A DNA stretch of 40,082 bases from a virus. A program made the position numbers and the translations under genes. The notes beneath the pieces were generated by a model, which was given only the letters and a program-made list of their open reading frames with translations, searched no databases and was not told the DNA's origin. The first letter of the stretch is position 1, and each line of letters starts with the position of its first letter. The stretch lies in the IMG/VR virus record IMGVR_UViG_3300036791_000419, positions 1 to 40,082 of that record, one strand, 5' to 3'. Below, piece after piece: positions 25,371 through 40,082 of the stretch.

Positions 25371-25496
25371 ACCGGCCTTCTGGATCCGCTGCGTCGCGTC
25401 GCACGACAGCCAAAGCCAGCGGTTTTGCACGAGGCGCGGCAGGCCGAACAGGCAGAACGGGAGCCAGAGCGCGCCGGCGATGTACAGCAGGGTCAT
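25314..25496 (-). CDS. Small membrane protein coupled to replication gene, 60 aa
   Basis: The ATG overlaps the stop of the RepL-like gene (ATGA), so the two are a translational pair. The product has an N-terminal hydrophobic helix (LLYIAGALWLPFCLFGL), a basic and Trp-rich centre (RLVQNRWLWLSC) and a C-terminal Leu/Ala/Pro hydrophobic helix: two membrane segments in 60 residues. Function is unknown. It may be a plasmid accessory membrane protein or take part in lysis or exclusion. It converges on the lipoprotein gene and overlaps its end. Confidence 0.6.
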   Translation of the reverse strand: MTLLYIAGALWLPFCLFGLPRLVQNRWLWLSCDATQRIQKAGLLAAIPLALALPLLLPAR

Positions 25497-26101
25497 TCGG
25501 AATTGTCTCCCTCGGGCAGCAGCGGCAGCTGCGCCTGGTCGGTCGGCAGTCGGCGCGCGCCTTTGCGGCGATAGGCTTTCATCACCACCATGCGATCGCC
25601 GTTGAACATGAAACGCACGTTGATGAAATACAGATCGGCCGCGGGCGAGCGGAACAGGAATTCTTTTTCGAGCAACTCGTTGAGGCCGCGATAAAATGTC
25701 GAGCGCGAGAGATCGGGCAGATGTTTCGTGGCGATATAGTGGTTGAGCATCACCGTATCGCGATCCTTGCCGGCGGCGCCGCTCATTTGATTGAACACAA
25801 ATTCAAACACGGTAAGCCCGGCCTTGGTCAACTGCCCATGCTGCTTGACCCCGGCGAAGTAGATCTTGACGAATTGCTCGCTATCCACCTCCTCCTCGGT
25901 GATAAAGCCGAACGTGCCTTCGGCGAGCACCTCGCCCGTATCGGGCGCGATCATCATCGCCTGCTTGCCGTTCGCCTTTGACGTTGAGCGCATGGCTACG
26001 GGGAAGCGCCCGACGATCGACGGGTTTTCGTCATAGATCGGAAAACCGCGCCGCTTCGGCAATTCGAGCACCTTCTCGGATTTTTGAGTCTTTCGTCCCA
26101 T
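25493..26101 (-). CDS. RepL-like plasmid replication initiator
   Basis: 202 aa from the ATG at 26101, with AGGGCAG upstream; a TTG at 26164 would add 21 residues without a ribosome site. The layout resembles RepL-type initiators. It has a TGEV motif near the N-terminus and a helical block starting FVKIYFAGVKQHGQLTKAG. A winged-helix core follows (LSRSTFYRGLNELLEKEF) with a YFINVRFMFNGDR motif, the 'Yf.Np..f.GdR' signature. A basic tail ends the protein. RepL proteins open or nick their origin and recruit host replication. Directly upstream lie 21-bp-spaced iterons, an A/T patch and DnaA-box-like repeats. The initiator is separate from the parA operon and is transcribed toward the structural genes. 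Confidence 0.7.
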   Translation of the reverse strand: MGRKTQKSEKVLELPKRRGFPIYDENPSIVGRFPVAMRSTSKANGKQAMMIAPDTGEVLAEGTFGFITEEEVDSEQFVKIYFAGVKQHGQLTKAGLTVFEFVFNQMSGAAGKDRDTVMLNHYIATKHLPDLSRSTFYRGLNELLEKEFLFRSPAADLYFINVRFMFNGDRMVVMKAYRRKGARRLPTDQAQLPLLPEGDNSE

Positions 26102-28074: not shown

Positions 28075-28360
28075 GGCGTGAAGCCCCCTTGTAACGGCCA
28101 TCGGCGCGCGGCTGATCGGGCGCCAGGTTGTCGGAAAAGGCCGGATCGATCCGGCGCTCGAGAGCGCGGCAATCGGCGATGTGGCGGCGCAGAGCGGCGG
28201 CCATATCGCGCATAAAGCCATCATGGAGCGGCGTCTGGCCGGCCGCGAGGCGGACCATGGTGCGCTCGTTGATCTCGAGCATCCGCGCGGCCTCGCGCGT
28301 GCCACCGACAAGGCGGATGGCCTGGCGGAAGAGTTCGAGTTGGGTGTCGGGATCGGTCAT
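28067..28360 (-). CDS. Small helix-turn-helix DNA-binding protein, 97 aa
   Basis: ATG overlaps the stop of the ribbon-helix-helix gene (ATGA). Residues about 8-55 (LFRQAIRLVGGTREAARMLE, then INERTMVRLAAGQTPLHDGF) form a Cro/XRE-like HTH with the 'A.la..l.is...v...l.G' rhythm, followed by a helix RDMAAALRRHI. The C-terminal 35 residues are Asp/Arg-rich and probably disordered. Lying between the partition pair and the recombinase, it could regulate the recombinase or act as a directionality factor. This is an inference from order only. Confidence 0.7.
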   Translation of the reverse strand: MTDPDTQLELFRQAIRLVGGTREAARMLEINERTMVRLAAGQTPLHDGFMRDMAAALRRHIADCRALERRIDPAFSDNLAPDQPRADGRYKGASRHG

Positions 28361-28629
28361 AGGGTTTCGCCAAATCTTTCTTGCGTGCGGTACTTCTCGA
28401 CGATGAGCTCGAGCGCCTCGGCGAGCAGATCTTGCTGCGTGCGCCGCGAGCGCACGGCCAGGATCCGGAATTCCTCGGCGATCGGGTCGGTAGGATCGAA
28501 ATAGCCGCCGATGTGCGATCGGCCGGCGTTGGCTTGGCGGCGCTTGGGCGCCGGCGCGACAGCGGCGGCCTCGAGCTCGGCGCCGCGATCGGCCGGCGCA
28601 TCGGTAAGCAACAGGCTACGTTTTGCCAT
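28357..28629 (-). CDS. Ribbon-helix-helix partition partner (ParB/ParG-like), 90 aa
   Basis: ATG 28629 follows AAGGATTTCACA, 12 bases after the parA stop. The first 45 residues are flexible and basic (AVAPAPKRRQANAGRSH). The second half, GGYFDPTDPIAEEFRILAVR followed by SRRTQQDLLAEALELIVEKY, is a ribbon-helix-helix domain. Short basic-tail plus RHH proteins directly after a small ParA are the centromere-binding partners of type Ib partition systems (ParG, Omega), where the flexible tail stimulates the ParA ATPase. It likely binds a parS and represses the operon. Candidate sites are at 29319-29350 and the heptamer arrays near 38317-38581. Confidence 0.75.
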   Translation of the reverse strand: MAKRSLLLTDAPADRGAELEAAAVAPAPKRRQANAGRSHIGGYFDPTDPIAEEFRILAVRSRRTQQDLLAEALELIVEKYRTQERFGETL

Positions 28630-28640
28630 TGTGAAATCCT

Positions 28641-29321
28641 TCAAGGCTGAATGGTTGACGGTGTGATGGTTTGCATAGTTGCAAGCGTGAAGTTGTGCAG
28701 TGCTGCAATCTCCTGCATCGCCTTGCCGCCCGGCTCGAATTCGCCCACGGCCAAGCCATGCGGCCAGGCATGGCGGAACGCAGAGCGCTCGCGCACGACA
28801 ACCGGCGCGCAAGCCAGACCGGCGGCGCCGGCGAGCTCGCTGGCATCCTCGAGCAGCGCACGCGCCGAGACTGGCGCGGTATTGAGCACAACAAAGGCCT
28901 GCTTGGCCGCGGTCGCGATCAGGTGCGCGGTGCGGCGGATGGCATCGAGGTCGATCAGGCTTGGCCGGCAGGGGATGAGGACAAGATCGGACAGACGGAC
29001 GGCCTCGGCCGCCTCGTTGCTGGCCGCCGGCGGCGTGTCGAGGATCGCCAGGCCAAAGCCGGCGGCGCGCGCGGCGGTCAACCAGGCCGGCAGGCGCCGC
29101 GCGCTCAAGGGCTCGACGTGGGGCATATCGCCATCGACGGCATTGGGCAGGCGGTGTTCGTTGGCTAGGCGGCGTTCGTGCCAGGCGGTGGCGCTTTCCT
29201 GGCTATCGAGATCGGCGATCGCCGTGCGGATCCCCGCATATTCGGCGGTGACGGCGAGATTCACGGCGAGCGTGGTTTTGCCGACGCCTCCCTTTTGTGC
29301 TGCAATTGTGATAATGTGCAT
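28641..29321 (-). CDS. parA: ParA-type partition ATPase
   Basis: 226 aa from ATG 29321, with AAAGGA at 29331-29336. The deviant Walker A box KGGVGKTT is at residues 10-17, with the signature Lys10; LAILDTPPA is the Walker B region. There is no N-terminal HTH, so this is the short (type Ib) class that relies on its partner for DNA binding and autoregulation. It would segregate the plasmid-state prophage at cell division by forming dynamic gradients on the nucleoid. It is the first gene of parA-RHH-HTH-recombinase and is preceded by an 87-base gap with promoter- and operator-like elements. Confidence 0.9.
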   Translation of the reverse strand: MHIITIAAQKGGVGKTTLAVNLAVTAEYAGIRTAIADLDSQESATAWHERRLANEHRLPNAVDGDMPHVEPLSARRLPAWLTAARAAGFGLAILDTPPAASNEAAEAVRLSDLVLIPCRPSLIDLDAIRRTAHLIATAAKQAFVVLNTAPVSARALLEDASELAGAAGLACAPVVVRERSAFRHAWPHGLAVGEFEPGGKAMQEIAALHNFTLATMQTITPSTIQP

Positions 29322-31703: not shown

Positions 31704-31919
31704 TTTGGCCTCCGCTCGTCAGAAGTTCGTCAGAATTAAAGTTTACTTTTGAAAACTTCCAGAAATGCAAGTCGGGGAATCCCCGATAAGCCTAGTGTCA
31801 GCGCTCTGCTTACTTGCTGGCATGACAACAATCTTGGCGGAAATGTCGGCCGCGGAGATTCTGCATTTAGCCGATTTGCCGCTTGTCATGGGGTAAGCCC
31901 GAGTATTAACCAATGCAAT
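31704..31919. promoter_or_regulatory. Divergent control region between maintenance and early operons
   Basis: This 216-base gap separates the minus-strand maintenance operon from the plus-strand XRE regulator and has no convincing gene. It contains two direct TCGTCAGAA copies one helical turn apart (31716-31724, 31727-31735), an A/T-rich stretch, a near-perfect palindrome TCGGGGAATCCCCGA (31772-31786), and an inverted pair CATGACAA (31821-31828) and TTGTCATG (31883-31890). These are the kind of operators a lysogeny switch uses. Promoter hexamers are weak by eye apart from the one listed for the regulator. Confidence 0.6.
31883..31909 (+). promoter_or_regulatory. Candidate promoter for the XRE regulator (possibly leaderless)
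   Basis: TTGTCA (31883-31888), a 15-base spacer and TATTAA (31904-31909) precede ATG 31920 by ten bases. No Shine-Dalgarno sequence lies in between, so transcription may begin at or next to the start codon, as for lambda cI. The -35 lies within the right arm of an inverted repeat. The short spacer lowers confidence. Confidence 0.4.
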
Positions 31920-32141
31920 ATGGAACAACTGGCCGGCGATCATCCGCTGCGTGCCTGGCGGAAAGCGAAAGGCCTTAGCCTGGGACGATGTGCCGATGCG
32001 GTCGGCACCAGCAAACAGGTGTGGTCGGATTGGGAGCGCGGGCGGCGCCGGCCGGGCCATCATTACATGCCCAAAGTGCGCGAATTCACCGCCGGCGCGG
32101 TCAGCGCCGACGATTTCTTTCCTGCGGAGGATGATCGCTAA
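31920..32141 (+). CDS. XRE/Cro-type transcriptional regulator, 73 aa
   Basis: I chose ATG 31920; earlier codons in the frame encode no helix-turn-helix and cross the operator-like repeats. Residues about 9-40 (LRAWRKAKGLSLGRCADAV, then GTSKQVWSDWERGRRRP) are a classic HTH with the 'l...R...gls...lA...g.s......wE.G...P' pattern. There is no C-terminal dimerisation or cleavage domain, so it is Cro-like in size rather than a LexA/CI-type SOS-sensitive repressor. It probably controls the choice between plasmid maintenance and lytic growth. No ribosome site is visible. Confidence 0.78.
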   Translation: MEQLAGDHPLRAWRKAKGLSLGRCADAVGTSKQVWSDWERGRRRPGHHYMPKVREFTAGAVSADDFFPAEDDR

Positions 32142-32171: not shown

Positions 32172-32381
32172 ATGGAAAAATTCGATGAACGGCCGGGGAT
32201 GCTCGAGGCGACGCGCGGGCTCGGTCCTACGGTTGTGCTCCTGCACGGCCAGCAAGCCCATACGCTGAACGTCTATCTCGTTTGCGACGGGATCATGGTG
32301 CGGCTGACGCCAAGCGAAGCGCGCCGGCTTGCCGAAGATCTGATGCGCGCGGCCGGTTGGGCGGAATCGACCGATGATTAG
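32172..32381 (+). CDS. Hypothetical early protein, 69 aa
   Basis: Starts at ATG 32172 with a strong GGGGAGG site. The product has a central beta-like stretch (TVVLLHGQQAHTLNVYLVCD then GIMVRLTPSEARRLAEDLMR) resembling a small strand-helix fold. No motif points to a function. It overlaps the primase gene by eight bases, so it is part of the early replication operon, perhaps as an accessory to replication or regulation. Confidence 0.62.
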   Translation: MEKFDERPGMLEATRGLGPTVVLLHGQQAHTLNVYLVCDGIMVRLTPSEARRLAEDLMRAAGWAESTDD

Positions 32382-33474
32382 CGTTTCGGATATCGAGGCG
32401 CGGTTGCGCGCGCGCGCCGAGGAGCTCGCGCACGAATTGCTGCCGGCCGCGCGCCGCGAGGGCGCCTATTGCAAGGCGGGCTCGATCGACGGCGAGGCCG
32501 GCAACAGCCTGGTGCTCTATCTGGCCGGCGAGCGCCGCGGCAAGTGGCGCGACTATGCGAGCGACGAGCATGGCGACATGCTCGATCTGATTGCGGCGAC
32601 GCAGCGGCTCGAGAGCAAGGCCGCGGCCGTGGCCTGGGCGAAAGCCTGGCTTGGGATCGAGGACACGCCGCGCAAGGCGCCGAGCTCGGCCGAGCGCCTC
32701 GAGGCGAGCGAGCGCCACCGGGCGCGCGTGCTCGCACAGCAAAAGCGCGAAGCCGAGGAGCGCGCGAGCAAGATCCAGAGCGCCAAAGCGCTTTACCTGG
32801 CGCCGGGATCGGTCGCGATCGCCGGAACGCCGGTCGAATGGTACTTGCGCCGCCGCTTGCTCGAGCCCGCCCGCGTCAAGCCTGGCGAACCTGCCACCTG
32901 GCCGAACGTGCTGCGCTACAACCGCGAGGTCTGGCACGGCCGCGAGCAACGCAAGTTTCCGGCGATGCTGGCCGCGGTGTATCTGGCCGATGGCACCCAG
33001 GTCGCGACGCACCGGACCTATCTGCAAAATTCGCCGCGGCATGGGTGGGTCAAGATTGATTGCCCCGATTGCCGGATGGTCCTGGGCCCATCGGGCGGCG
33101 GGTTCATCCCGATCAACAAGGGCGCTTCGGGCAAATCGATGCGGCTGATGCCGGCCGGCGAGCGCGTGTTCATCACCGAGGGGATAGAGGACGCGCTCGT
33201 TGTCCGCATGAAGATACCCGATGCGCGCGTGATCTGCGGGATTAGCCTGTCGAATATAGGCGCGATCGTGCTGCCGCCGGCGGCCAAGGAGATCGTGCTG
33301 GTTTGCGATCGCGACGAAAACGAGCGCGCGCAAGCCGAGCTCGAGCGCGCGATCGGCCGCCAGCAAGCGCGCGGGCTCAAGGTGTTCATCGCCATGCCGC
33401 CGCCCGGAATCAAGGATTACAACGATTGGCTGCGCGTGCTCGCGGCGGCCGGAAAACGGGGAGATCTCGCATGA
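32374..33474 (+). CDS. Toprim-domain DNA primase
   Basis: 366 aa. It would make RNA primers for phage or plasmid DNA synthesis. The N-terminal part has the primase-type passage GERRGKWRDYASDEHGDMLD. A basic helical linker at about residues 100-140 follows (HRARVLAQQKREAEERASK). The Toprim domain at about 255-350 shows the catalytic Glu in VFITEGIEDA (about residue 268), the conserved small-residue loop CGISLSN, and the metal-binding DxD in LVCDRDEN (about residue 310). The C-terminus has a PPGIKDYNDWL motif typical of such phage primases. The start ATG overlaps the upstream gene; the stop overlaps the next ATG (ATGA). No zinc-binding cysteine set is seen at the N-terminus. Confidence 0.85.
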   Translation: MISVSDIEARLRARAEELAHELLPAARREGAYCKAGSIDGEAGNSLVLYLAGERRGKWRDYASDEHGDMLDLIAATQRLESKAAAVAWAKAWLGIEDTPRKAPSSAERLEASERHRARVLAQQKREAEERASKIQSAKALYLAPGSVAIAGTPVEWYLRRRLLEPARVKPGEPATWPNVLRYNREVWHGREQRKFPAMLAAVYLADGTQVATHRTYLQNSPRHGWVKIDCPDCRMVLGPSGGGFIPINKGASGKSMRLMPAGERVFITEGIEDALVVRMKIPDARVICGISLSNIGAIVLPPAAKEIVLVCDRDENERAQAELERAIGRQQARGLKVFIAMPPPGIKDYNDWLRVLAAAGKRGDLA

Positions 33475-35438
33475 CCGATCCGCTCGGCCCCGACCCGCTT
33501 AGTGGTTCGCTCGAGGTTCCGCACGGTTCGCCCGAATTCGCCAACGATGGCGACGCCGGCCCCGAATTCAAACGCGGGCACAAGGACTATCCGCCCCTGC
33601 CGCCCGGCTGCCCGGTCAAGTGCCTGGGCTACAACGCCAGCATCGAAGGCTCGCAAAAGTGCTTCTATCTCGACGCGAACGGCCAGCTGGTCGGCCTCGA
33701 GGCGAACAACCGACACGGCAAGAACGCGCTCGCGTGCCTGTTCGGCAAGCAACTTGCCTGGCTCGAGGAGACTTACCCGCGTTGGTCGCCGCAACGCTTT
33801 GAAGGCCGCGGCGCCGATCGGGTGATGGTTAAGGACCATGAAATCATCGGGTTCGATCAGGCCGAAGCCAGCGAGGCGATGATTATCGAGTGCACGAAAA
33901 AGGGCATGTTCGATCCGGCTGGTCGGATGCGCGGGCGCGGCGCGCATCCGCTGGCGCACAATGGCTTGGTCATTCACCACGGCGACCAATTGTTGCACGC
34001 GCGGCAAAAGCCCGATGGATCGGTCAAAGGGTGGGAATGGATCGGTTGCGGGCTTTACGAGGGCTATGTCTATCCGGCGGCCGAGCCCACGCCCCGGCCG
34101 TGGCTCGATCCGATCAATGCGCGGCCGGCCGAAAAGCTGCTCGAGCTCTTGCGCTCGTGGCGGTGGAAGCGGCCGCTCTTGGATGCGCGGTTCCTGTTGG
34201 GCTGGATCGGCGCGGCCTCGATCGGCGGCGCGCTCAAGTGGCGGCCGAACGTCTGGATCACCGGCGGCTCGGGGAGCGGCAAATCGACGCTCAACGGCGA
34301 GCGCGGCGTGCTCGATCAATTGTTCGGCGCCGGGCTGTTGCGCACCGGCAACGCGAGCGCCGCGGCGATCCGCCAGCTGCTCAAGAATTCGACAGTGCCG
34401 GTCCTGTTCGACGAGATCGAGGCATCGGCCGACAATCGGCGGGTCAACGAGGTTGTCGAGCTCGCGCGCGTCTCGAGCTCGGGCGCGACGATCCACCGCG
34501 GCGGCGCGGATCACCAGGCGCACGAATTCACGTTGCGCTCTTGCTTCCAATTCTCGAGCGTCAACATTCCGCCCTTGCAGCCGCAGGATCGCAGCCGGCT
34601 CGGGATCCTCGAGCTCGAGCCCTTCGCGTCTGGCGCGGTTCCACCGATCCTCGAGGATTGGGCCCTGGCCGAAATCGGCCGCCAGCTGCAACGCCGGATG
34701 ATCGATGGTTGGCCGCGGTTCGATCGCACCTTGGCGGCGTTTCAGGCCGCGCTTTCGGCCAAGGGTCACAGCCGGCGCGCCTGCGATCAGTTCGGAACCT
34801 TGCTGGCCTGCGCGGATCTGCTGCTCAATGAACAGATGGCCGATCACGAGGAAATCGCCGAATGGGCGATGCTCTGCGCGCCCGATCACATGGCTGAGAT
34901 CGCCGAGGCGACGCCCGACCATGAGGCTTGTCTCAATCATCTGCTGACGGCGCCGGTTCAGGCGCACGGCGGCGACGAGCGCGTGGCGCTGGCCAGCTGG
35001 ATCGGCCGCACGGTCAGCCTGGCCGCGACAACGGCGCGCATGGGTGACGAGGAGGCCGCGCTCGAGAAGGCGAGCAACCGCTTGCAGCAATTGGGGCTCA
35101 AGCTGGTCAATGCGGCCTGGCATCCTGGCGCGCCTGGGCATTGGGGCGCAGCGGCGTTTGCGGCCGATCGGCCCGGCTTCCTGGCGGTCGCGGCTAGCCA
35201 TCAAGGCTTGGCAAGGATCTACCAGGGAACCACCTGGCAGGGCGGCGTGTGGCGCCAGTCATTGGCGCGCACGCCTGGCGCGCTGGAATCGGTCAAGATC
35301 AAGTTCGGCCGGCTTTCACTGCGCGCGGTGCTCGTCCCGCTGGCGGTCGTGCTCGACGAAAGCGAGCTCCCCGCGGCGAGCGCCCCGGCCGCGGCCGCGG
35401 CGTGGATGAGCGCGCAAGAAAAAGGGCCCGGCGCATGA
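33471..35438 (+). CDS. P-loop ATPase / replicative helicase partner of the primase
   Basis: 655 aa from ATG 33471, overlapping the primase stop; the upstream extension is a shadow of the primase. A Walker A box, ITGGSGSGKST, lies at about residues 262-272 and a Walker B box, VLFDEIEA, at about 311-318. An Arg/Ser-rich stretch (SSSGATIHRGGADHQAHEF) and the NIPPLQPQDRSRL passage fit later helicase motifs. The first 230 residues may be a substrate-binding region (PGCPVKCLGYNA and ECTKKGMFDPAGRMRGRG). It probably acts with the upstream primase as the phage replisome's motor. Exact superfamily (SF3-like or DUF927-like) cannot be fixed by eye. Confidence 0.75.
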   Translation: MTDPLGPDPLSGSLEVPHGSPEFANDGDAGPEFKRGHKDYPPLPPGCPVKCLGYNASIEGSQKCFYLDANGQLVGLEANNRHGKNALACLFGKQLAWLEETYPRWSPQRFEGRGADRVMVKDHEIIGFDQAEASEAMIIECTKKGMFDPAGRMRGRGAHPLAHNGLVIHHGDQLLHARQKPDGSVKGWEWIGCGLYEGYVYPAAEPTPRPWLDPINARPAEKLLELLRSWRWKRPLLDARFLLGWIGAASIGGALKWRPNVWITGGSGSGKSTLNGERGVLDQLFGAGLLRTGNASAAAIRQLLKNSTVPVLFDEIEASADNRRVNEVVELARVSSSGATIHRGGADHQAHEFTLRSCFQFSSVNIPPLQPQDRSRLGILELEPFASGAVPPILEDWALAEIGRQLQRRMIDGWPRFDRTLAAFQAALSAKGHSRRACDQFGTLLACADLLLNEQMADHEEIAEWAMLCAPDHMAEIAEATPDHEACLNHLLTAPVQAHGGDERVALASWIGRTVSLAATTARMGDEEAALEKASNRLQQLGLKLVNAAWHPGAPGHWGAAAFAADRPGFLAVAASHQGLARIYQGTTWQGGVWRQSLARTPGALESVKIKFGRLSLRAVLVPLAVVLDESELPAASAPAAAAAWMSAQEKGPGA

Positions 35439-35515: not shown

Positions 35516-35839
35516 CTATTTGAGCTGCGCGCGGGCCTCCTCGAGCGCGAGCGCTGCCAGGTGGAGCTTGCGGGCCAGGGGCAGGCCTTCCCATGCATCA
35601 TCGATCGCGACGCTCTGCGCGGCGTAGCTCGAGCTCGGCGGCGCTGGCTCGACGATTGGAACCGGCGCCTTGTTTGCCGGCCTATCGCCCCAGGCGTTGA
35701 GCCAGGCCAGCAAGCCGGGTTTGTCGGTCGGCACCTCGACGAGCTCCCAACAGTTGCGCCCCCAAAGCCTGGCGGCCTCGTCCTGCGTGCCGGCCCATTG
35801 CACGGCCGCCATCATGTCGTCGCTGCGATACAACCGCAT
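35516..35839 (-). CDS. Hypothetical protein with WLNAW motif, 107 aa
   Basis: ATG 35839 has a strong GGAGGAAA site. The product begins MRLYRSDDMMAAVQWAGTQD and contains VPTDKPGLLAWLNAWGD, matching a passage in the 92-aa gene at 31120-31398. Its second half adds a helical C-terminal domain (DAWEGLPLARKLHLAALALE) absent from the shorter paralogue. Last gene of the accessory operon, after hairpin copy 1 and before the terminator. Function unknown. Confidence 0.68.
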   Translation of the reverse strand: MRLYRSDDMMAAVQWAGTQDEAARLWGRNCWELVEVPTDKPGLLAWLNAWGDRPANKAPVPIVEPAPPSSSYAAQSVAIDDAWEGLPLARKLHLAALALEEARAQLK

Positions 35840-35868
35840 TGCATTTCCTCCGTTGCGATCGGCCAGGC

Positions 35869-35923
35869 TGACCGCTCAAGTGGCCCCCCGGCCGATCGCG
35901 CCAGGGGGCGTCTTGAGCGGTCA
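35869..35923 (-). repeat. Intergenic hairpin module, copy 1
   Basis: TGACCGCTCAAG (35869-35880) pairs perfectly with CTTGAGCGGTCA (35912-35923), with a further GCCCCC/GGGGGC stem inside. The right arm includes the stop codon of ardA. Outer arms match copies 2 and 3, while the inner stem has a different sequence that still pairs, which argues for a conserved RNA structure. Confidence 0.8.
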
Positions 35924-36595
35924 GAATTCGGCGGCGTTGGTCACAAGGAAGCGCTCGCCGTCGAGCTCGGCCAAGTCCACATCGCCAGCCTGCAGAAGCT
36001 CGCGCCCGGCCGCGGTCCAGTCGATATGAAAAAACGGCCATTGCCCGCAGCGCTCGGCGAAATCCTCGATCGTGTCGGCCGCGAGCTCTTGCGCGTAGTC
36101 GGCGGCCAGGTCGAAAGCGTCGCCCTCATGGGCGCAAACCTCGTCGCAGCGCTCGAGCGCTTCGCTGATGGTGTAGCCGCGGTCTTGCACCAGCCAGAGC
36201 AGGCCGCGGCGCTTGTCGTCGTCCTCGAGCGCCTCGGCCGCCTGGCCGAGCTCGGCCAGGTCGGGCCATTCGCTCGAGATCAGGCCGCAAAAGCCTTCGT
36301 GATCGTGGATGGCGTATTCCTCGGCGCTCGCGAACGGCGCGGAGGCGTCGTCGCTGCCGCAGCGCGGGCAGTCGCGGCGCTCGGCGATGCTGCCAACGTC
36401 AAAGCGCTTGCCGCATGTGTTGCAGAGGCGGCGCAGCACGTTGGGTTCAGGCGAGCGCGCCAGCATCGCGTCTATTTCGTCGTGGAGCTCGTCGGCATCC
36501 TTGCCGGCAACATCGATCCAGATCCCGCGCAGGCGCCCGGAATTGTAGGCGGCGAGGTCGGCGGCGTAGATGCGGGGGCTTGTCGTCGTGGTCAT
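35921..36595 (-). CDS. ardA: Antirestriction protein ArdA with inserted zinc ribbon
   Basis: 224 aa; ordinary ArdA is about 165-170 aa. ArdA is an acidic DNA mimic that blocks type I restriction-modification enzymes when DNA enters a cell. Family signs: PRIYAADLAAYNSGRLRGIW at the N-terminus, YAIHDHEGFCGLISSEWPDL in the middle, and the acidic end with GRELLQAGDVDLAEL. Unusually, residues about 52-90 insert a Cys4 knuckle (C58xxC61, C76xxC79; CNTCGKRF and DCPRCG) between the first and second ArdA blocks. The start has AAAGGCC as ribosome site within the repeated leader module. It helps the phage-plasmid establish in a new host. Confidence 0.85.
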   Translation of the reverse strand: MTTTTSPRIYAADLAAYNSGRLRGIWIDVAGKDADELHDEIDAMLARSPEPNVLRRLCNTCGKRFDVGSIAERRDCPRCGSDDASAPFASAEEYAIHDHEGFCGLISSEWPDLAELGQAAEALEDDDKRRGLLWLVQDRGYTISEALERCDEVCAHEGDAFDLAADYAQELAADTIEDFAERCGQWPFFHIDWTAAGRELLQAGDVDLAELDGERFLVTNAAEF

Positions 36596-36703
36596 GGTCT
36601 AGGCCTTTCGTGCCTTGGTGCCGGCACCGTGCCGGCGGCCGTTGTCGAGCGGTGGCCGCTCAAGTGGCGGGCGGCGCGAGGCCGCCCGCGTCTTGAGGGG
36701 TCA
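36593..36703 (-). repeat. Intergenic leader/hairpin module, copy 2
   Basis: Extends from the ardA start codon through AAAGGCCTAGACC (ribosome site), a CCGGCACCGTGCCGG hairpin and a 50-base stem-loop (36654-36703) to the stop codon of the DUF6884-like gene. The 50-base part differs from copy 3 at only two positions. The inner stem is GCGGGCGGC/GCCGCCCGC. Confidence 0.85.
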
Positions 36704-37258
36704 GAGCAAAGCGGGCTGGATCTTGCTGCCAAACCCGCCGAGCTCGAGGCCGAATTGCGCCGGCGCGCGCTGCATCGCCTCGGCGACGATCGGCGCGGCC
36801 GGCTTGCGGCGCGCGTGGTAGGCTTCGGCGGCCTTGCGCGCGAGCCAGGCCTTTTGCTCGCCGAGACCCAGGCCTTGCATGGGAACGCTCACGGCATAGC
36901 GATCGAACATCGGCGAAGCGGTGAGCGCGTCGCGGTACAGCTGGCCAGCAAGAAAGACGATCGATCCACCGGCCGGCAGGAGGTTGTCGAGCTTCAAATC
37001 GAGCGCGACTTGATCGCCCCAGGCCTGGCGCTGCCAATCGTGCTCGAGCTCGCCCAAGGTGGCGTTGTAGGGCTCGAGCACTTGCTCGGGGTGCACCAGG
37101 CCGTGTTTTGCCGAGAGAATGCGCCAGGGCGCGCCGATCGTCTCGACGTAGGCGCGCGCCTTGCGGAACCAATCCGAGGTGTAGAGCTCGCAGGCCGGCG
37201 CCGGCCGATCGAGCTTGCCGGCAACGCAGGCGACGAGGTGAAGTGGTTGGGGGTTCAT
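36701..37258 (-). CDS. DUF6884-like protein, 185 aa
   Basis: Starts at ATG 37258 with AAGGAA upstream. The N-terminal half shows the pattern of DUF6884/YaaA-like phage proteins: LVACVAGKLDRPAPACELYT, then SDWFRKARAYVETIGAPW, RILSAKHGLVHPEQVLEPYN and a TLGEL helix. The conserved Cys-Lys-aPA-LYtSdwF and SAkHGLv..P elements look intact. The biochemical role of the family is not known to me; links to nucleic-acid modification have been suggested for relatives but I cannot support that here. It stands between the SANT-like gene and ardA. Confidence 0.7.
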   Translation of the reverse strand: MNPQPLHLVACVAGKLDRPAPACELYTSDWFRKARAYVETIGAPWRILSAKHGLVHPEQVLEPYNATLGELEHDWQRQAWGDQVALDLKLDNLLPAGGSIVFLAGQLYRDALTASPMFDRYAVSVPMQGLGLGEQKAWLARKAAEAYHARRKPAAPIVAEAMQRAPAQFGLELGGFGSKIQPALL

Positions 37259-37270
37259 GGGTCGGTTTCC

Positions 37271-37477
37271 TTAAATGAGGCGCGGCCGGGCGACGGCGCC
37301 GGCCTGGATCAGTTGCAAGCGGCGATCGGCGATTTCGCCGAACGGGCGATCGGGAAGGCCGATGTGCCAAAAGTCGCTAGCCAGGCCGCAAGCGACCATG
37401 CGGACGAGCTCGGCGTCTTCGGCCGCGGTGAAAGGGGAAGCCGGCGCGCGGCGCTTCCATTGAGCTTTGCCAGCCAT
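37271..37477 (-). CDS. SANT/Myb-like or GcrA-like small DNA-binding protein, 68 aa
   Basis: ATG 37477 lies three bases after the upstream stop with GGGGAG before it. After a basic head (MAGKAQWKRRAPASPF) comes TAAEDAELVRMVACGLAS, then WHIGLPDRPFGEIADRRLQL. This is the spacing of a SANT/Myb-like helix-turn-helix ('t.aED..l...v..G.....w...lp.Rs..ei..R'). Such proteins are frequent in alphaproteobacterial phages and probably regulate transcription. Target unknown. Confidence 0.62.
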   Translation of the reverse strand: MAGKAQWKRRAPASPFTAAEDAELVRMVACGLASDFWHIGLPDRPFGEIADRRLQLIQAGAVARPRLI

Positions 37478-37480
37478 CGC

Positions 37481-37723
37481 TCAGCACTCCCCGACGAAAT
37501 ACGAGCGCGCCGACCAGCAGGACGACGAGCGCGGCGCTTCGGCGAGCTCGACCGTAAAGTGCCCGCATCCGAGCGGCACGTAGCCATCCCAGGACACGGC
37601 AGCGTCGAAGTAGTCGCGCGCGAAGTCGGCGGCGTGCGCGTCGCAATCGATCGTTTCGCGGCGCGACAAAGTGCGCTGCATCAGGATTTCGCCGGATTGA
37701 TCGTCGGTGATGGTGAGAAACAT
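37481..37723 (-). CDS. Hypothetical protein, 80 aa
   Basis: ATG 37723 carries the same leader (AAAGGCCTAGACC) as ardA, part of repeated module 3. The product begins MFLTITDDQSGEILMQRTLS and has an acidic helix (DAHAADFARDYFDAAVSWDG), a strand (GHFTVELAEAP) and two late Cys residues. No family is recognised. The shared leader suggests co-regulation with ardA. Confidence 0.62.
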   Translation of the reverse strand: MFLTITDDQSGEILMQRTLSRRETIDCDAHAADFARDYFDAAVSWDGYVPLGCGHFTVELAEAPRSSSCWSARSYFVGEC

Positions 37724-37828
37724 GGTCTAGGCCTTTCTTGCCTTGGCGCCGGCCTGATGCCGGCGGGATTAGAGCGATGGCCGCTCAAGTGGCGGGCGGC
37801 GCCAGGCCGCCCGCGTCTTGAGAGGTCA
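37721..37828 (-). repeat. Intergenic leader/hairpin module, copy 3
   Basis: Runs from the start codon of the 80-aa gene through the AAAGGCCTAGACC ribosome site, a GCCGGCCTGATGCCGGC hairpin and a 50-base stem-loop (37779-37828) to the stop codon of the 45-aa gene. It is a close copy of the module at 36593-36703: 48 of 50 bases match in the stem-loop. Confidence 0.85.
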
Positions 37829-37963
37829 GCGCAAAATCTCGGCGCACTCGAGGAGCTCGACGAGCTTGCGGGCCCATTCGGCGGCCTCGCGGTCCTTGCC
37901 GCACTGTTTGAACGCGATGGCCTTGGCCAAAGCCTGGGCGGTGGCGCTGCGATCGATCGTCAT
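37826..37963 (-). CDS. Small helical protein, 45 aa
   Basis: ATG 37963 follows the upstream stop by three bases. The product begins MTIDRSATAQALAKAIAFKQ and continues with CGKDREAAEWARKLVELLEC: two amphipathic helices with Cys residues, ending in EILR. Third codon positions are mostly G or C, as in neighbours. Unknown function. Its stop codon is in the right arm of hairpin copy 3. Confidence 0.65.
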   Translation of the reverse strand: MTIDRSATAQALAKAIAFKQCGKDREAAEWARKLVELLECAEILR

Positions 37964-37966
37964 GGT

Positions 37967-38107
37967 TCAGGCGCCCTTTTCGTTGATGAGGAAGCCGGCG
38001 ATCGTCAGCGCGGCGGCGATGGTGAAGCAAATCACGTCTTCGCCGGTGATGGCGGAGGCGACCATGGCACCGAAGGCGCCGAACGAAAAATCGGTAAAAA
38101 GTGTCAT
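37967..38107 (-). CDS. Small membrane protein, 46 aa, first gene of accessory operon
   Basis: ATG 38107 has GAAAGGGC upstream. The product has a Phe/Gly/Ala-rich first segment (MTLFTDFSFGAFGAMVASAI) and a hydrophobic helix (VICFTIAAALTIAGFLI), with a short NEKGA end. One or two membrane passes are plausible. Function unknown. A candidate promoter with a perfect -35 lies about 50-80 bases upstream. Confidence 0.62.
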   Translation of the reverse strand: MTLFTDFSFGAFGAMVASAITGEDVICFTIAAALTIAGFLINEKGA

Positions 38108-38292: not shown

Positions 38293-38316
38293 GGGTGAGC
38301 TCGAGGCCCAGGCAGC

Positions 38317-38581
38317 GGTTCCAGCTGGAACCGCGCTGGAACTGCGGTGGAACCGCGATCTCATTGAAACATCGAGGCAATCCCGGCCGGTTCCAGGGTT
38401 CCAGCAAAATGCAGGGCCCCTAGATGCGCGCGCGCGAGTCTCCCCGGCTTTGTCATGGCCTCTTTTATGTGCGCGTGAGTCAGCTGGAACCGTGGAACCA
38501 CACTTCTTTCTGTATAGGGGTCATAGGGTTAGTGGTTCCAGCGCGGTTCCAGCGCGGTTCCAGCTGGAACCGGCCGGAACC
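38317..38581. repeat. Two arrays of GGTTCCA/TGGAACC heptamers (13 sites)
   Basis: Plus-orientation GGTTCCA begins at 38317, 38389, 38397, 38534, 38545 and 38556. The inverse TGGAACC begins at 38326, 38348, 38485, 38493 and 38565, with one-mismatch copies at 38337 and 38575. Three copies at 38326, 38337 and 38348 and three at 38534, 38545 and 38556 are spaced exactly 11 bases, one helical turn. Palindromic pairs (GGTTCCAGCTGGAACC) occur at 38317-38332 and 38556-38571. This is a protein-binding array: iterons, centromere or operators. Confidence 0.85.
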
Positions 38582-39101
38582 GGCGGCCTGCGATCGGCAC
38601 CAGGCGGCCGGATCTGCGGCGATCTGGCGCCGGCCTGGTCGGCGGCCGGCCTCGAGCTCGGCGAGCTCGTCGGACAAGGCCGGCCTAGCACCGTTTTGGA
38701 CGGGCGGCCGGCGCGAGGTTTTGGCGTTTCGGCCGGCCGGCCGCGGCGCCGGCCGATCGGCGGAAATCGGCCATTCTCGCGGCCGGAGGGCCGACTAGTG
38801 GCAAGGCCGATGTGGCAAGCTGGCGGGCAAGGCCTTGATTTTCCGCGCTTTTCCGGCCGGCCGCCTCTGCCTTCGAGGCTGACGGCCGCGGCCTTCGGCC
38901 GACCCTGGCGCCCCCATTCGCCGCGGCTCCGCTCCCGAGCATGGCGGCGCTCGCGCCTGGCCAGATTTGGAACGGCTGCGCCTCTTGCCTTTCGGGGGCG
39001 GGCAGGCGCCAAATTTGAAACGGCGCGATCGGGTCGGGGCGGCGTCCGGGCTCCCGCGAATCCGCGGCGATCTGCTGACACTAGGGCAAGGAGGTAAGCG
39101 C

Positions 39102-39665
39102 ATGTCAACCAATCACGGCGACTTGGCTGTGACGAAAGAGGCGCTCGAGCAGGCGAAGGCGCTGGTTGAGCAGGGCGCGGCCGAAGCCGAGCAAATGGAT
39201 CTGTTCGTCGAGAACCCGATTACGGCTGACGAGCTCGAGGACGCGCGCGAAGCGCTCGGCGGCCATGCCGGCGTCGTCTCGGTGCTCAGAGAGGCGCGCA
39301 AGCGGCGCGGCGGCCGCCAGCAGGGCGTGCGCAACCGCCGCACCAACGATTTCGCGCGCTACATCGCGCAATTTGGCCAGGATCCGGCCGTGACCATGAT
39401 GCAAATCCAATCGACGCCAACCGAGGAGCTCGTCGCGCGCTCGCGCCTGGTCGATACGCCCAAGCGCCAAATGTCCTATGCCGATGCCGCGAGCCTCAGA
39501 ATCCGCTGCGCCGAAGGGCTGATGGCCTATGTGCACAGCAAACAACCCATTGCAGTCGATGCCACGATCCGCGGGATTACCGTGGTCGAAGAGATCGGCG
39601 GCGCCGCGGTGATCGAGGCCGAGGTCGAGGAGCTCGAGGTCATGCGGGAGGATGGCGATGGCTGA
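39102..39665 (+). CDS. Putative terminase small subunit
   Basis: 187 aa from ATG 39102, with a strong AAGGAGGTAAG site; the earlier reading in this frame has no ribosome site and unusual composition. The protein is helical and acidic at both ends with a basic middle (REARKRRGGRQQGVRNRRTN) that could bind the packaging site, then DFARYIAQFGQDPAVTMMQI and a helix YADAASLRIRCAEGLMAYVH. Position one gene before terL, at the head of the virion operon, and the charge pattern suggest TerS. No definite HTH signature could be fixed, so the call is by context. Confidence 0.55.
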   Translation: MSTNHGDLAVTKEALEQAKALVEQGAAEAEQMDLFVENPITADELEDAREALGGHAGVVSVLREARKRRGGRQQGVRNRRTNDFARYIAQFGQDPAVTMMQIQSTPTEELVARSRLVDTPKRQMSYADAASLRIRCAEGLMAYVHSKQPIAVDATIRGITVVEEIGGAAVIEAEVEELEVMREDGDG

Positions 39666-39858: not shown

Positions 39859-40082
39859 CACGATCCGCCGGTTGAATTCGCCGGGCCCGATCGCCGATGC
39901 GTTCCTGGCCTCGCGGGCATTTCTGCAAATCCTGATCGGCCCGGTGGGCTCGGCAAAAACGCTCACCGCGCTGCGCAAGATGCGGCGCATCGGGATGCAG
40001 CAGGGCGGGAGGATCGATGAACAGGGCGTGCTCTGGCGCCGCGCGCGCGCCGGGGTGATCCGCGAGTCCTATCCGAATTTGG
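39851..40082 (+). CDS. terL: Terminase large subunit, N-terminal part (continues at window start)
   Basis: ATG 39851 with GGGAGG upstream opens the gene whose body is at 1-1425 in circular reading. This part encodes MADTIRRLNSPGPIADAFLA and the P-loop GPVGSAKT. Translation is in frame through 39956-40082, which duplicates 1-127. The window end truncates it only because the circle was opened here. Confidence 0.92.
   Translation, partial: MADTIRRLNSPGPIADAFLASRAFLQILIGPVGSAKTLTALRKMRRIGMQQGGRIDEQGVLWRRARAGVIRESYPNL
39956..40082. repeat. Right copy of 127-bp terminal direct repeat
   Basis: Exact repeat of bases 1-127. Removing one copy gives a 39,955-bp circle and an intact terminase gene. Confidence 0.97.

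Follow-up and report, generated by a model that had tools for sequence, protein, structure and literature searches.

What is a dense, phased array of short repeats for when it stands between the replication genes and the terminase genes of a tailed phage? The window (the whole stretch of viral DNA that was analyzed, 40,082 nucleotides) contains 13 heptamers within 265 bp (38317–38581). The original prediction had described eleven exact and two one-mismatch copies, two triplets spaced by 11 bases, and two 16-base palindromes, and a recount bore this out. The 11 exact copies of GGTTCCA or its complement TGGAACC lie within 38317–38571, and the two deviating ones are TGGAACT (38337) and CGGAACC (38575). 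The right triplet (38534/38545/38556) is exact at all three sites, that on the left (38326/38337/38348) has a degenerate middle copy, and the 16-bp palindrome GGTTCCAGCTGGAACC occurs at 38317–38332 and at 38556–38571. The whole window contains 15 exact heptamers versus 2.77 expected; its densest 265-bp stretch has 11, a number that did not exceed 2 in any of 300 Markov shuffles, and the GGTTCC core occurs 12 times where 0.25 occurrences are expected locally.

All 13 sites are part of one larger inverted repeat centered at 38444, the arms of which (38316–38367 and 38521–38572) are 85% complementary and the inner pairs of which (38389–38405 and 38483–38499) are 94% complementary. The left outer block (38317–38354) consists of four iterons (38317 on the plus strand; 38326, the degenerate 38337, and 38348 on the minus strand) and is followed by an inner pair on the plus strand (38389–38403; iterons at 38389 and 38397). 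Beyond a GC-rich spacer of ∼80 bp with alternating GCGC/GTGCGCG (38404–38484) lie a second inner pair, on the minus strand (38485–38499; iterons at 38485 and 38493), an AT-richer stretch (38500–38533), and the right outer block (38534–38581), again of four iterons (38534, 38545, and 38556 on the plus strand, 38565 on the minus strand) but with one extra degenerate site (38575, minus strand). Iterons are spaced by ∼11 bp, or by 8–9 bp within pairs. The dyad, the circularity of the contig, and the conservation in relatives are features beyond the initial description. An Rfam search of the array returned no match, comparison of its DNA with annotated phages and plasmids no meaningful one, and promoter and terminator scans at the array found neither, in particular no sigma-70-like promoter.

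A direct terminal repeat of 127 bp (1–127 and 39956–40082) closes the contig to a circle of 39,955 bp; the terminase genes span the join, with terL running across it. As the genome has its own putative terminase, a gene in the portal position, and a full late region on these 39,955 bp, it does not depend on a helper phage in the manner of a PICI satellite. Left of the array, on the plus strand, are the genes for a Toprim primase (DUF7146 and Toprim_3; 32374–33474) and its partner, an AAA+ helicase of 655 aa (33471–35438), which is the proposed initiator and iteron reader. Between helicase and array lie leftward accessory genes (35516–38107, minus strand; ArdA, DUF6884, and others), which are found there in the window and in relative L034 but are absent from this place in most relatives; the ArdA antirestriction protein is encoded at 35921–36595. 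The gene for the putative small terminase subunit (terS; 39102–39665, plus strand), assigned by position and conservation and belonging to no named family, starts 521 bp to the right of the array. A RepL-like winged-helix initiator (25493–26101; recognized by motifs, with no Pfam match), a ribbon-helix-helix (RHH) protein (28357–28629), ParA (28641–29321), and an XRE regulator (31749–32141) are encoded farther left. Pfam yielded nothing informative for the RepL-like protein, TerS, or the helicase. The RepL-like gene, ParA/RHH, and an integrase give the genome the appearance of a phage-plasmid with two replication systems, a trait shared among the relatives only with L034.

Relatives of the helicase were found in viral contigs and in genomes of Sphingomonadales (Altererythrobacter, Croceicoccus, Novosphingobium, and Erythrobacter). 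An array was present between helicase and terS in 10 of 10 relatives whose sequence covers that stretch (that of L062 ends too soon to judge); thus, the absence from close relatives that the original prediction had named as refutation was not seen. The layout is the same in 11 phages or prophages, the window and ten Sphingomonadales-type relatives: each half of the dyad has six GGTTNCA-type iterons, 12 in all, at fixed distances from the center (about −120+, −110−, −99−, −88−, −49+, −40+, +40−, +49−, +88+, +99+, +110+, and +120−, with small shifts in some members), of which between 7 and 12 per array have an exact core. Two more distant phages, MT835534 (helicase 45%) and MT835930 (helicase 34%), have recognizably the same layout as judged by eye from the sequence, with GGTTCT (L076) and GTTACC (L130) as their words. 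The distance of the array from the helicase gene varies, being 275–289 bp in L056 and L057, 496–866 bp in L058, L060, and L061, and 2.9–3.4 kb from the helicase stop in the window (2.9 kb) and L034. That to terS is steadier, 521–758 bp, with the array always upstream.

Geometry is conserved, but the word is not. The window, L005, L034 (where T, not A, follows), L056, L057, L058, and L061 have a GGTTCC core, L059, L060, and L064 have GGTTGC, and L063 has GGTACC; within one array, all sites change word together. Because the hosts, where known, belong to one order, this concerted change calls for a single reader that the phage itself must encode. Judged from these sequences, a single phage protein probably reads the iteron word, and the helicase is the most likely one. 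Within the phage family, no column convincingly separated the iteron classes in the helicase, the primase, TerS, TerL, XRE, or g29681; the C-terminal signal in the helicase was weak, and two weak regions (160–219 and 560–619) failed multiple testing. With covariation in the phage-family helicase weak or absent, the identity of the reader is best supported by plasmids (see below).

The multi-operator switch that had been offered as one explanation would have the XRE protein, or another phage regulator, control leftward and rightward operons from the array, which in the window does sit between divergent operons. In most relatives, however, the array lies 3′ of the helicase gene and not between large divergent operons; in L056, L057, and similar phages, the main flanking genes are co-directional. 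Moreover, tblastn did not find XRE in L057 and L058, L060 (GGTTGC) and the GGTTCC phages do not differ in the recognition-helix region of this protein, and no sigma-70-like promoter was found at the array. As a conserved function, such a switch is therefore not supported, and we consider it very unlikely. Initiators of the RepL type also bind repeats, and the phage encodes a RepL-like protein for which the heptamers might be the iterons. Yet, among nine relatives whose genomes or records were searched, this gene was found only in L034, whereas the array is present in all full-length relatives, which leaves this reading with hardly any probability.

The same kind of two-sided array, with concerted word changes and adjoining a helicase gene, occurs in a set of complete circular plasmids, mostly of 11–14 kb, from Escherichia, Enterobacter, and Citrobacter (L015 is a member; examples are OW969628, NZ_CP063501, and AP022423). 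Several of these (L073, L075, and L077–L081) are cryptic, mostly of 11–14 kb, and encode a helicase, an RHH protein, and a DNA invertase; they contain few known families and are annotated as hypothetical. Here, the array begins 35 bp 3′ of a gene for a 519-aa helicase, and the words also include GGTTAC and GGTTAA. They differ from the phages in that no terminase genes are recognized on them, in their AT-rich array center (69%), and in their helicases, which have no detectable sequence homology to the phage helicase. Between GGTTCC and GGTTAC plasmids, the helicase differs at 3 positions in residues 15–335 but at 26 or more in residues 336–519, and hardly any change is seen in the DNA between helicase gene and array or just past the array. 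The C-terminal part of the helicase, in which 25 columns at 384–501 separate the classes perfectly, is the best candidate for the reader on plasmids, as far as comparison of alleles can tell, with the caveat that the 3′ end of the gene adjoins the array, so a recombination tract could link both.

The plasmids also bear on the proposed centromere (parS) of the ParA/RHH pair. RHH proteins bind repeated short words, and both genes are present on this phage. On plasmids, in contrast, RHH proteins from either side of a word change share 98.8% identity, whereas identity drops to 34% for a pair of plasmids with a common word, so the protein does not track the word. Furthermore, ParA is absent from the ∼40-kb, near-complete records of L061 and L064, and from L015, all of which keep the array; the spacing of ∼11 bp (8–9 bp in pairs) is not that of the contiguous 7-bp heptads of Omega-type systems, and the array lies ∼9 kb from the two genes. 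This option of the original prediction thus found no support, and that the array is a centromere appears highly improbable.

The steady position of the array, always 521–758 bp upstream of terS, would instead fit a packaging site (cos or pac), with the heptamers bound by TerS and the cut made by TerL close to the dyad center, similar to the hexamer arrays of P1 pac. TerS rings wrap phased sites. Word and terminase do not go together, however: the TerL of L005, L057, and L058 is clearly distinct (35–41%, vs 54–83% for the others), yet these phages share the GGTTCC word, while the TerS proteins of L056 (GGTTCC) and L059 (GGTTGC) are nearest neighbors (58%). The plasmids have such arrays without a recognized terminase, and separate conserved blocks between array and terS, including TGTTGGAAGGGTGATGTTGGAAGGGTG in most relatives, are better candidates for packaging. 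A role of the array itself in packaging is accordingly rated as unlikely. The blocks (38582–39101; GAATATTCTGGCGGG, GAATGGCGGATTTCTGCGG, TGTTGGAAGGGTGATGTTGGAAGGGTG, and a repeated CGGGTCGGGGTG) are conserved in relatives and are candidates for a packaging site or for a region of late control. On the grounds given for each, centromere, RepL iterons, XRE operator, and packaging site were all rejected as the main function.

An AlphaFold2 model of the window helicase had a mean pLDDT of 69, with the first 104 residues poorly modeled. Its best Foldseek matches in the PDB were SCCmec Cch (5dgk), SaPI5 PriRep1 (7pds), and SaPIBov1 Rep (8tch), at E values of 5e-5 to 4e-4 and with low TM-scores for this moderate-confidence model; the C-terminal domain alone matched no solved structure in the PDB, and there was no sequence match. 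The model thus suggests kinship with Cch and SaPI Rep at the level of the fold, as for a self-loading helicase of the Rep type. SaPI Rep recognizes, via its C-terminal domain, iterons directly 3′ of its own gene, apparently as two hexamers (PMC7581432). PICI origins consist of an AT-rich region flanked by two iteron sets just 3′ of rep, and one that was functionally tested works (PMC6092414). The phage locus shares with these origins (PMC6092414, PMC7581432) the two sets of short iterons around a spacer, the location downstream of primase–helicase, and the related helicase fold; C-terminal recognition by two hexamers would be a further likeness if it extends to the phage helicase. It differs in that the window, which has terminase and portal, belongs to a tailed phage of full size, that its spacer is GC-rich, its AT-rich stretch off-center, and its geometry a fixed 4+2/2+4, and that 2.9 kb separate the array from the helicase stop, whereas SaPI/PICI origins are immediately 3′ of the helicase gene. 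In phage P4 (NC_001609), crr contains GGTGAACA repeats and starts beside the 3′ end of alpha. These type 1 repeats are close in form to the iterons, although the word of the window is GGTTCCA, and GGTTAACA occurs on plasmid L074; P4 also has spacings of 9–11 bp in ori and inverted sets around an AT-rich stretch in crr. Unlike the phage array, P4 has two 120-bp copies of crr and a distant ori, 8-bp words, and an alpha protein in which primase and helicase are fused.

The center of the array, at 29–39% AT, is similar to the genome, so the two iteron sets do not flank an AT-rich region. Most relatives have a fuller CCTCGCGT...ACGCGAGG version of the central spacer, and a palindromic GC-rich element, CCTCGCGT..GTGCGCG...CGCGCATATACGCGAGG, to which the window spacer (38404–38484) is related, is kept across the iteron classes. 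This conserved center may bind a second protein or serve as a structural element. The stretch at 38500–38533, by contrast, is 53% AT in the window and 59–81% in relatives, compared with 35% for the genome; it contains a conserved motif like CTATATATATCATAGGGTTAGT, sits off-center inside the right half of the array, and is a candidate melting element.

Similar words are found elsewhere. When 2.9 million viral contigs were scanned for three heptamer copies at 11-bp spacing, with two test words and two scrambled controls, 30 stretches were returned for GGTTCCA and 43 for GGTTACA; the scrambled controls, matched in composition, gave 4 and 3. More than half of the GGTTCCA stretches (16/30) lie in genes for DnaD-like helicase loaders, which form a single homologous family and also make up 13 of 40 array-side proteins when both searches are pooled; GGTTACA arrays adjoin primase/helicase genes. 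As the arrays are in or near loader, primase, and helicase genes, the word marks replication modules. The loader genes (L006, L011, L016, L029, L031, and others) share heptamer and 11-bp spacing with the window, within a replication gene, but their arrays are mostly tandem and intragenic, and the initiator in their case has no homology to the helicase. Repeated 5–6 bp TATCT/TAACCT-like words beside the GGTTCCA array of several loader genes (L006:6310, L016:7879, L029:10293, and similar) are possibly a melting element, and at one locus (L032), a DnaA-box-like TTATCCACA lies beside the array. It is tempting, if rather speculative, to regard GGTTNCA at a phase of ∼11 bp as a recognition vocabulary shared by unrelated phage initiators (Rep/alpha-like helicases and DnaD-like loaders), and the six-plus-six array as a rigid ruler for a double hexamer, in which the word can be swapped wholesale to yield mutually incompatible origins.

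Taken together, the fixed geometry in the replication module of the 11 phages, the concerted word change, the fold of the helicase, and the plasmid arrays strongly support the second of the options initially listed, an origin for primase and helicase: the array is very probably the replication origin of the phage, of the P4 crr or SaPI/PICI type, read by its own Rep/Cch-like helicase. The 2.9-kb gap between array and helicase in the window, the steadier distance to terS, and the GC-rich center, unlike that of PICI origins, speak against it. The helicase, similar to Rep, Cch, and P4 alpha, would bind the six iterons of each half via its C-terminal part and assemble as two hexamers face to face, with six subunits per half; the AT-rich stretch at 38500–38533 would then melt, and bidirectional lytic replication would start, primed by the Toprim primase. 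RepL (25493–26101) and ParA/RHH would constitute a separate system for plasmid maintenance. What is new is that such a putative origin, with a GC-rich center, an off-center AT-rich stretch, and orthogonal words, occurs in full-size tailed phages. The origin type would now extend to these phages of Sphingomonadales and to small enterobacterial plasmids. The natural words at unchanged geometry (GGTTCC, GGTTGC, GGTACC, GGTTCT, and GTTACC, and, on plasmids, GGTTAC and GGTTAA) make the residues with which the helicase would read them directly testable, and with the same set of variants, it can be tested whether the six sites in each half of the array stand for a single hexamer.
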